From an uncultured Pelagibacteraceae bacterium (GTDB taxonomy: Bacteria; Pseudomonadota; Alphaproteobacteria; Pelagibacterales; Pelagibacteraceae), in assembly GCA_902605645.1 (NCBI GenBank), contig CACLDE010000002.1, positions 1 to 64,000 of the forward strand: DNA of 64,000 nucleotides, in the 5' to 3' direction. This document shows, in pieces, positions 49,124 to 51,902 of the stretch (its first letter is position 1; each line of letters starts with the position of its first letter). The position numbers and the translations under genes were made by a program. The notes under the pieces are model-generated. The model was not told the origin of the DNA, did no database searches, and worked only from the letters and a program-made list of their open reading frames with translations.

Positions 49124-49210
49124 GGGCGAATGGTGGAACTGGTAGACGCGCCGGACTCAAAATCCGGTGGTAGCAATACCTTGAGAGTTCGAGTCTCTCT
49201 TCGCCCACCA
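49124..49210 (+). tRNA. tRNA-Leu(CAA)
   Basis: GGGCGAA...TTCGCCC 7-bp acceptor stem, loop ACTCAAAATC with CAA anticodon, long variable arm TGGTAGCAATACCTTG, GTTCGAGTC T-arm, encoded CCA. Confidence 0.96.
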
Positions 49211-49214
49211 ATTT

Positions 49215-50891
49215 ATGAATATTAGTAAAATAAATAGTTTAGTTGAACTTTATTTTAAAAAAGCTCAAGTAGTTAACGGAAAAAAACCATTTTTAAAATG
49301 GCTAAAATTAAACGAACCAACTTATACTTGGGAAGATGTCACTTTAAAAATCCTCAAACTTTCTTCAAAGATAAAGTCATTTATAAATGAGGGGGACCGA
49401 TGTTTAATATTATCTGAGAACAGACCGGATTGGCTAATAACAGATATTGCTATTATGAATGCTGGAGGTATTTCGGTTCCTATATTTACCACTTATTCTG
49501 CAAGTGATTATGAGTATATTTTAAATGACTGTAAACCTTCAATTATAATTGTTTCTAATCAAAATCAATTTAGCAAAATTAAAAAAATTATTAATAGTGA
49601 TATAAAAAAAATTATTTCTTTTGAAAAAATTGATACTGATAGTTTGTTAATAAAAGAAATAATAGATGAAGAAATTGACGAAAAAATAATCAATAAAAAT
49701 TTAAAAAGAAATATGCCAGCATGTATAATTTACACTTCTGGCACATCAGGAAATCCTAAAGGAGTAGTTTTGAGCCATGGAGGAATTTTATCGAATTGTG
49801 AAGGGGCAGTTGAATTATTAGAGACTTTAATTGAGAAAAAAAATCCTATTTTTTTAACTTGGTTACCTTTATCTCATTCATACGAGCATACGGTGCAATT
49901 TATACAAATCATAGTTGGCGCAAAAGTTTTTTATGCAGAAAGTTTAGAAAAATTAATTTCAAATATGGGTATAGCAAAACCAACAATTATGACAGCTGTA
50001 CCGAGATTCTACCAAAATTTATATACAAAGATAAATAATAATTTTGAGAAGCAGAATGGAATAAAAAAATATTTGATTTTTAAAACTTTATTTTTAGGAA
50101 AAAAAGTACTCAAAAAGGAGAAATTAAACTTTTTGGAAAAAATCTTAAATTTTTTATGTGAAAAATTAGTAAGAAAAAAAATTAGAAAACAATTTGGTGG
50201 AAACCTCCAGGCTTTCGTTTCAGGGGGAGGCGCTCTTGATCAAAATATAGGGGAATTTTTGAATTCTGTAGGCCTACCAACTTTACAGGGATATGGCTTA
50301 ACTGAGGCCTCTCCAGTTGTAAGTTGTAATTTACCAGATTTGGTAAAAGTAGAAACAGTAGGTCCTCCGTTTAGAACAAATAAAGTTAAAATTGCTGAAG
50401 ATGGCGAAATTCTTATTAAAGGTGAAAATGTGATGCTGGGGTATTGGAATTTAAAAGAGGAGACTGAAAAAGTAATTAAAAACGATTGGTTACATACAGG
50501 AGATATAGGGGAACTAGACAATAATAATTATTTAAAAATCACTGATAGAAAAAAAGATATAATTGTTAATCTCGGTGGAGACAACATATCACCAAGTAAA
50601 TTAGAAAATATTTTGTGCTTAAATGAACATATAAAACAATCTTTTGTATACGGTGATAAAAAAAATTATTTAGTAGCATTAATTGTAAGCGAAAAAGAAA
50701 TTAAAGATAAACAAATTAAACTCATAATTGAAAATATAAATAAAAGTTTAACTTTAATTGAAAAAATTAAAAAATTTGTATTGATTTATGAAGAATTTAC
50801 AATTGAAAACAAAATGTTAACACCAACTTTAAAATTAAAAAGAAAAGAAATAATTAAAAATTATAAACAACAACTAGAAAACCTTTATTAA
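49215..50891 (+). CDS. long-chain fatty-acid--CoA ligase (AMP-binding)
   Basis: IYTSGTSGNPKGVVLSHGG, LQGYGLTEASPVVS, HTGDIGELDNNNYLKITDRKKDIIV. Confidence 0.9.
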   Translation: MNISKINSLVELYFKKAQVVNGKKPFLKWLKLNEPTYTWEDVTLKILKLSSKIKSFINEGDRCLILSENRPDWLITDIAIMNAGGISVPIFTTYSASDYEYILNDCKPSIIIVSNQNQFSKIKKIINSDIKKIISFEKIDTDSLLIKEIIDEEIDEKIINKNLKRNMPACIIYTSGTSGNPKGVVLSHGGILSNCEGAVELLETLIEKKNPIFLTWLPLSHSYEHTVQFIQIIVGAKVFYAESLEKLISNMGIAKPTIMTAVPRFYQNLYTKINNNFEKQNGIKKYLIFKTLFLGKKVLKKEKLNFLEKILNFLCEKLVRKKIRKQFGGNLQAFVSGGGALDQNIGEFLNSVGLPTLQGYGLTEASPVVSCNLPDLVKVETVGPPFRTNKVKIAEDGEILIKGENVMLGYWNLKEETEKVIKNDWLHTGDIGELDNNNYLKITDRKKDIIVNLGGDNISPSKLENILCLNEHIKQSFVYGDKKNYLVALIVSEKEIKDKQIKLIIENINKSLTLIEKIKKFVLIYEEFTIENKMLTPTLKLKRKEIIKNYKQQLENLY

Positions 50892-51021
50892 ATTTAATTT
50901 TAAAATAATATAAATTTATTCAAAAAACATTGATAATACTTAACTTTTTTAACTTTTAAAAAATTAAACAATTTTAATAAAAAAATTAAATTTATTTGCA
51001 AACTTACACTTTACTTTGTGT

Positions 51022-51043
51022 TTGACATCAAAGAAAAAAAACT
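51022..51043 (+). promoter_or_regulatory. candidate strong sigma70-type promoter for the tiny basic gene
   Basis: Perfect TTGACA (51022-51027) downstream of a very A/T-rich UP-like stretch; -10 is weaker (TAAAGT after a 16-nt spacer). Confidence 0.4.
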
Positions 51044-51099
51044 TAAAGTTAAATTATCAAAACGAATCATAACGATTTGTTTATAAACAGGGAGATAAG

Positions 51100-51165
51100 A
51101 TGGCTAAAAGAAGAAAAAAAGCTAAAAAGAAAAAAGCTAAAAAAAGAAGAAGAAGAAGAAGATAG
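51100..51165 (+). CDS. 21-aa extremely basic peptide MAKRRKKAKKKKAKKRRRRRR
   Basis: ATG preceded by AGGGAGATAAG (SD-like); TAG stop; terminator hairpin follows; occupies the largest otherwise non-coding gap. Below the ORF-track cutoff. Confidence 0.6.
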   Translation: MAKRRKKAKKKKAKKRRRRRR

Positions 51166-51190
51166 TACTCTTCTAAATTCTTTGTTAATT

Positions 51191-51224
51191 AAACGCCCTT
51201 TTTGATTTTTTAAAAAGGGCGTTT
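51191..51224. terminator. terminator hairpin between the tiny basic gene (+) and carD (-)
   Basis: AAACGCCCTTTTT-gattttt t-AAAAAGGGCGTTT inverted repeat in a convergent gap. Confidence 0.8.
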
Positions 51225-51230
51225 CTATTT

Positions 51231-51902
51231 CTAATGTTCTAACAAGTTTTTGCCTCTACCAAGTGCTTTGTCCATCTTTTTTTGAACCTCTTCTGGGGTA
51301 GTTTTTAAAACAGCTTCAAATTCTGACTTAAGTCTATCATAGGCTTTTTCGAATAGTTGTCTCTCAGAATAAGACTGATCAGCTAATATATCAGTATTTT
51401 TATTTAGGTCTTTGACTACTTCAGCCAACTCATAAATTTTACCTGAGTTAATTTTTTGATCATATTCCTGTGCTCTTCTACTCCACATAGTTCTTTTAAT
51501 TTTGGGTTTGGTCTTCAGTATTGAAACACACTTATTAATTTGATTTATTGAAGATACAGGTCTAAGATTTGATTGTTGATTAATCGGTACAGTTAGAGTT
51601 AGTTTTTCTTTTTCAATAAAAATTTTATAAAATTGAATTTCGATTTGGCCAATTTTGGCTTTTTCAACAGCAGTAATTTTACCGACTCCATGTTTAGGAT
51701 ATACAACAAAATCTTTTATATTATATTGTTTCTTTTCAGTAGCTTGTTTTTTTATCTTTTTTATTTCTGGTTTTTCTTCTTGATTTAAGTTTGTTTGTTT
51801 TTTTGACTTATCTTCAACTTTTGATTTTTTAGTCAGCAAAATTTTTGTCTTTTTTGAACCTTTAACTTTTTTTGCTTTTTTAAATTTCTTCTTTTTTGGC
51901 AT
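51231..51902 (-). CDS. carD: CarD/CdnL-family transcriptional regulator with Lys-rich N-terminal extension
   Basis: IKDFVVYPKHGVGKITAVEKAKIGQIEIQFYKIFIEKEKLTLTVPINQ; adjacent to fdxA as in other alphaproteobacteria. Confidence 0.9.
   Translation of the reverse strand: MPKKKKFKKAKKVKGSKKTKILLTKKSKVEDKSKKQTNLNQEEKPEIKKIKKQATEKKQYNIKDFVVYPKHGVGKITAVEKAKIGQIEIQFYKIFIEKEKLTLTVPINQQSNLRPVSSINQINKCVSILKTKPKIKRTMWSRRAQEYDQKINSGKIYELAEVVKDLNKNTDILADQSYSERQLFEKAYDRLKSEFEAVLKTTPEEVQKKMDKALGRGKNLLEH

Follow-up and report, generated by a model that had tools for sequence, protein, structure and literature searches.

Introduction

Bacterial histone-H1-like proteins, such as AlgP, the tail of PhaF, and Hc1 and Hc2 of Chlamydia, are polycations rich in lysine, alanine and proline with a variable repeat length; KPAA-repeat peptides of AlgP were found to bind DNA in vitro (PMC9239181). 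Protamines and protamine-like proteins are tiny, arginine-clustered and almost pure polycations, and the ribosomal peptides eL41 and bTHX are likewise very basic, about 25 amino acids long and universal in their clades. In Myxococcus, CarD is joined to a basic, disordered DNA-binding segment in the form of an HMGA-like domain.

SAR11 bacteria (Pelagibacterales) are the most abundant bacteria in the ocean. Here, we analysed a gene for a 21-residue basic peptide located next to carD in a stretch of 64,000 nucleotides from an uncultured Pelagibacteraceae bacterium (contig CACLDE010000002.1 of assembly GCA_902605645.1)—this whole stretch being referred to as the window. Its nearest relatives among named genomes are Pelagibacteraceae single-cell genomes and HIMB058, which places the window in SAR11. 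The KKAAPKKK-repeat forms encoded at the same place in a sister family (f2) resemble the tail of an H1-like protein in composition; unlike the H1-like proteins, however, the SAR11 gene comes without a folded partner domain, and the 21-mer of the window is built of K/A followed by R clusters, with no P. The likeness to protamines is one of composition, with no ancestry implied; the SAR11 peptide stems from a bacterial gene, HU is also present and lysine exceeds arginine in most forms. In contrast to eL41 and bTHX, the peptide varies strongly in length, is encoded by a stand-alone gene and, as a 21-mer, has no sequence match in the PDB. Finally, the predicted DNA-binding segment is, unlike that of Myxococcus CarD, the product of a separate, convergent gene, and the SAR11 CarD has an N-terminal lysine-rich tail of its own.

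A putative single-gene transcription unit in the largest intergenic gap

A simple ORF-based gene call yielded 62 gaps in the window, with a median of 3 bp and 68% of them shorter than 20 bp. The largest gap (50892-51230, 339 bp) extends from the end of an AMP-binding gene at 50891 to the stop of carD at 51231 on the minus strand, and it holds a single gene—the peptide ORF at 51100-51165. Our results bear out the preliminary description of this DNA, which had reported a 21-residue peptide of M, A, K and R only in the largest gap of a genome with most gaps under 20 bp, and had assigned to it an AGGGAG Shine-Dalgarno sequence, a perfect TTGACA box, a leader hairpin and a downstream terminator, all of which we found where it had placed them. 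The features of the locus are as follows:

49215..50891, plus strand: AMP-binding (acyl-CoA synthetase-like) gene, located upstream both in the window genus and in genome G066
51022..51027, plus strand: perfect -35 box TTGACA amid A/T tracts, present order-wide in the alignments
51044..51049, plus strand: candidate -10 box TAAAGT, weak (4/6), with a spacer of 16 and a putative transcription start
51060..51082, plus strand: leader hairpin AAACGAATC-ATAAC-GATTTGTTT containing the invariant CGAATC (RNAfold, -7.4 kcal/mol)
51089..51094, plus strand: Shine-Dalgarno sequence AGGGAG, conserved in all alignments
51100..51165, plus strand: peptide ORF of 21 codons (ATG at 51100, TAG at 51163-51165), product MAKRRKKAKKKKAKKRRRRRR
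51191..51224, no strand assigned: bidirectional terminator-like inverted repeat AAACGCCCTTTTT...AAAAAGGGCGTTT, common to the peptide gene and carD
51231..51902, minus strand: carD, for the CarD/CdnL RNA polymerase-binding protein (Pfam CarD_C, 1.3e-19; CarD_TRCF_RID, 2.2e-12)

Lysine or arginine occupies 17 of the 21 positions of MAKRRKKAKKKKAKKRRRRRR, which has no acidic residue and a computed pI of 12. No second ATG-initiated ORF with at least 60% K+R was found in the 64-kb window, and none occurred in 60 first-order random sequences of 64 kb. The terminator-like repeat is symmetrical and is thus able to serve carD as well. Further upstream, a tRNA-Leu (caa) gene at 49124-49210 lies inside a 133-bp gap 5' of the AMP-binding gene.

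The leader signals extend beyond the window. In all leaders measured, the distance from TTGAC[A/T] to CGAATC is 38-42 nt; CGAATC and the hairpin are kept throughout the order and are nearly unchanged in the window genus, and all leaders listed have a stem of 6-10 bp that either follows or embeds CGAATC. The 3' arm diverges strongly in genera g5, g7 and g8 (e.g., ATCACATAA...TTATGTGAT) with complementarity retained, which supports a conserved hairpin or, alternatively, a DNA dyad. Compared with shuffled sequences, the hairpin is clearly better in several genera and weakly so in the sister family f2. With the promoter placed as above, the hairpin would sit at the extreme 5' end of the mRNA. Moreover, a whole-genome search for the pattern TTGAC-N32-38-CGAATC returned one site per genome, at the peptide gene, in six of seven genomes, so that a regulon is not indicated. 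In two genomes, AACGAATC or the full TTGAC...CGAATC pattern was observed just 5' of an HU gene, possibly by chance: one site precedes the HU gene of G065 (L166), and the other lies at C2:86606-86650 in G037, where the reality of the site is not established.

Conservation in the Pelagibacterales

The synteny beside carD proposed as a check in the preliminary description was borne out throughout the order: of the 87 carD loci that were readable (those with enough flanking sequence), which come from two families and ten genera of Pelagibacterales, all 87 have the peptide ORF in this position and orientation, converging on carD. Two sister-family contigs, L077 and L080, end too early and lie outside this count. 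A separate named collection, which overlaps with the 87-locus set and shares part of its genomes, so that the two are not independent, gave 74 of 80 carD loci with the ORF. The six misses fall on short contigs ending soon past carD; where lengths were compared, these loci extend about 90-170 bases beyond the carD match, too short for the ORF. On many carD contigs, the assembly was seen to break off no more than a few hundred bases away from carD and the peptide gene, possibly an effect of the low complexity of the lysine codons, and such breaks may explain genomes that seemingly do not have the locus.

The encoded products form a graded series. All 29 carD loci of the window genus that match the gap contain the ORF, with peptides of 20-25 amino acids that begin with MAKR and end in arginine-rich runs, and with the same Shine-Dalgarno sequence and terminator. 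In other Pelagibacteraceae, the peptide measures about 23-50 amino acids: the HTCC1062-like genome G066, which probably is 'Ca. P. ubique' HTCC1062, as its RNase P gene agrees in position and strand with that reported for this strain by Meyer et al. 2009, encodes a 29-residue form (MATKKKAKKAKKKTKKKAKKAKKAKKRKR), and genus g8 has peptides of up to 50 residues with KKAPAKK. The sister family f2 encodes proteins of 76-99 amino acids (sometimes 40) with KKAAPKKK/KRKPAKKK repeats, e.g., MEELKVIFAKARKKAKKKAAPKKKRKAAKRKPAKKKAAP..., and a composition like that of histone-H1 tails. The g8 peptides appear to bridge the short and the H1-tail-like forms. The 21- and 85-residue sequences cannot be aligned, and their common ancestry is suggested by position, regulatory elements and composition. 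The only constant neighbour of the gene is carD, always convergent and with the terminator in common; in f2, the upstream neighbour is instead a csaA-like gene, with an rpoH-like gene beyond it in one locus (both assigned by eye).

Outside the order, no such ORF was present beside carD in 28 other alphaproteobacteria—20 of them spread over the class, the remaining eight being small or AT-rich members—and the gene therefore looks order-specific, as judged at the carD position. Pfam searches with the 21-, 24-, 40-, 85- and 91-residue forms, as well as NCBIfam searches with the 21- and 40-residue forms, gave no match, including to the curated H1-like, Hc1 and Hc2 profiles (Pfam, 21-91-residue forms; NCBIfam, 21- and 40-residue forms), a test weakened by low complexity. 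A PDB sequence search with the 85-residue form produced one insignificant match, to ribosomal L29 (E=0.52). The Rfam search of the gap gave sub-threshold matches only, mostly over the terminator hairpin; the best of them, PyrG_leader, spans that hairpin and scored 33.2 bits against a curated cut-off of 65. The GC-ranked Table 1 of Meyer et al. 2009 (PMC2704228) has no entry for the gap, and no description of the peptide gene was found in the literature searched, the coverage of which was partial. Some of these ORFs may already stand in public SAR11 annotations as hypothetical or histone-like.

Codon-level selection on the peptide gene

The bias towards synonymous changes that the preliminary description had named as support for coding is pronounced. 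We compared 30 nearest-neighbour pairs of equal length with 2000 shuffles in which the same base changes were placed at random, and counted 39 synonymous substitutions where 19.8 were expected, a number reached in 0 of 2000 shuffles. Replacements other than K/R swaps were few (18 against 40.3 expected; 0 of 2000 shuffles as low), K/R swaps amounted to 23 against 17.1 expected, and stops were absent where 2.8 were expected; a smaller, earlier run had given the same result. Additionally, the ORF varies from 20 to 99 amino acids by whole codons with no frameshift, while the spacer between the hairpin and the Shine-Dalgarno sequence varies by single bases. These patterns in the aligned sequences show that the peptide gene is a real protein-coding gene under purifying selection on its K/R/A content; its synteny, preserved frame and synonymous excess contradict a chance ORF.

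Possible function of the peptide

On balance, we hold it probable, although far from certain, that the gene encodes a disordered polycation that binds DNA, and probably RNA, by charge and compacts the nucleoid beside HU. The autonomous single-gene transcription unit would give rise, in all Pelagibacterales examined, to a very short and probably disordered polycation, which would bind DNA and probably RNA non-specifically through its charge—in the manner of the histone H1 C-terminal tail and of protamines—and would help, together with HU, to neutralise or compact the nucleoid of these very small cells. The hairpin at the 5' end most likely allows strong expression of a small gene, either by stabilising its mRNA or as the mark of a regulatory site, and charge density and composition would be kept, with length (20-99 residues) of little weight. 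The strongest hint at such a function, as we see it, is that a single locus, under a single set of signals, shows a natural series leading from 20-residue K/R/A peptides up to repeat proteins like the H1 tail, across which the constant feature appears to be charge, rather than length or motif. Among the readings offered in the preliminary description, the nucleic-acid-condensing one would best fit the H1-tail-like proteins of 76-99 residues at the same place in the sister family. As HU genes were detected in each of the six genomes searched, the peptide would act in addition to HU. Against nucleoid compaction, it may be held that a 21-mer is short for DNA bridging, and that composition alone would suit DNA, RNA, the ribosome or polyphosphate equally well. 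The idea of a polyamine replacement was dropped in view of the gene cluster for polyamines that Pelagibacter itself carries (PMC9992855).

A ribosome-associated peptide, filling an rRNA cleft like the eukaryotic and archaeal eL41 (about 25 residues) or the bacterial bTHX, would agree with the universal presence of the gene in the order, and with its clear Shine-Dalgarno sequence and hairpin leader, as expected of a highly expressed gene. The peptide is similar to eL41 in size and basicity. Nevertheless, we regard this role as unlikely in view of an almost five-fold length range in one order, longer forms whose H1-like repeats do not resemble a ribosomal protein, a solitary gene outside any ribosomal operon and a PDB sequence search in which the 21-mer matched no chain up to E=10—a weak test for so short and low-complexity a query. 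The peptide, being a pure polycation, could also be a more general polyanion partner that forms condensates with, or balances the charge of, RNA or polyphosphate; such a partnership with polyphosphate has been put forward for the tail of AlgP, which is tied to the spacing of polyphosphate granules (PMC9239181). However, no link to polyphosphate genes was seen at the locus, and this mechanism, to which we assign a low probability, overlaps with that of a nucleoid-compacting polycation.

The constancy of carD as a neighbour, even where the upstream gene differs, and the lysine-rich N-terminal tail of Pelagibacterales CarD could both speak for a peptide that acts at promoters in trans, together with CarD and RNA polymerase. 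Myxococcus CarD attains full activity via its DNA-binding HMGA-like domain (PMC4374960), a further point in favour of such a partnership, and the title of another paper, cited in that article, describes the HMGA- and H1-like domains as functionally equivalent. It appears improbable all the same, as the convergent genes are not co-transcribed, the shared terminator may be what keeps them adjacent and CarD already has its tail. The least credible alternative, and a very improbable one, is that the conserved element is an RNA (an sRNA, decoy or leader) with an incidental ORF. Although the order-wide CGAATC and hairpin, nearly invariant in the window genus, are what such an RNA would predict, selection at the codon level is strong, the frame is preserved and no Rfam family reaches its curated cut-off. 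The interpretation in the preliminary description thus stands in part: its coding claim is upheld, whereas the leader peptide that it had also considered is disfavoured because nothing follows on the same strand before the two-way terminator and the convergent carD, and purifying selection on the codons speaks against a non-coding decoy.

Beyond the nucleoid-compacting reading itself, we suggest only tentatively, and with some doubt, that this order-specific minimal polycation (down to 20 residues and about 80% K+R), universal in SAR11, could be a distinct type of chromatin or ribosome component, and that genome streamlining may have cut an H1-like repeat protein to little but charge. A gene found in every readable genome, consisting of almost nothing but charge and falling below most gene-finding thresholds, could be an overlooked core component of the nucleoid or the ribosome. 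The natural series of 20-99 residues within one order would also offer a test of the minimal sequence for a nucleic-acid-condensing protein.

The N-terminal tail of CarD

The lysine-rich N-terminal tail of Pelagibacterales CarD is shortest, among those compared, in the window genus and in g9; in the window genus, the peptide is short too. A tail of this kind was also observed beyond the Pelagibacterales, in two AT-rich alphaproteobacteria (L171 and L173). In G106 (C1:254910-255569; locus L106), one stop interrupts the carD frame, in the N-terminal tail, and the adjoining peptide gene is intact.
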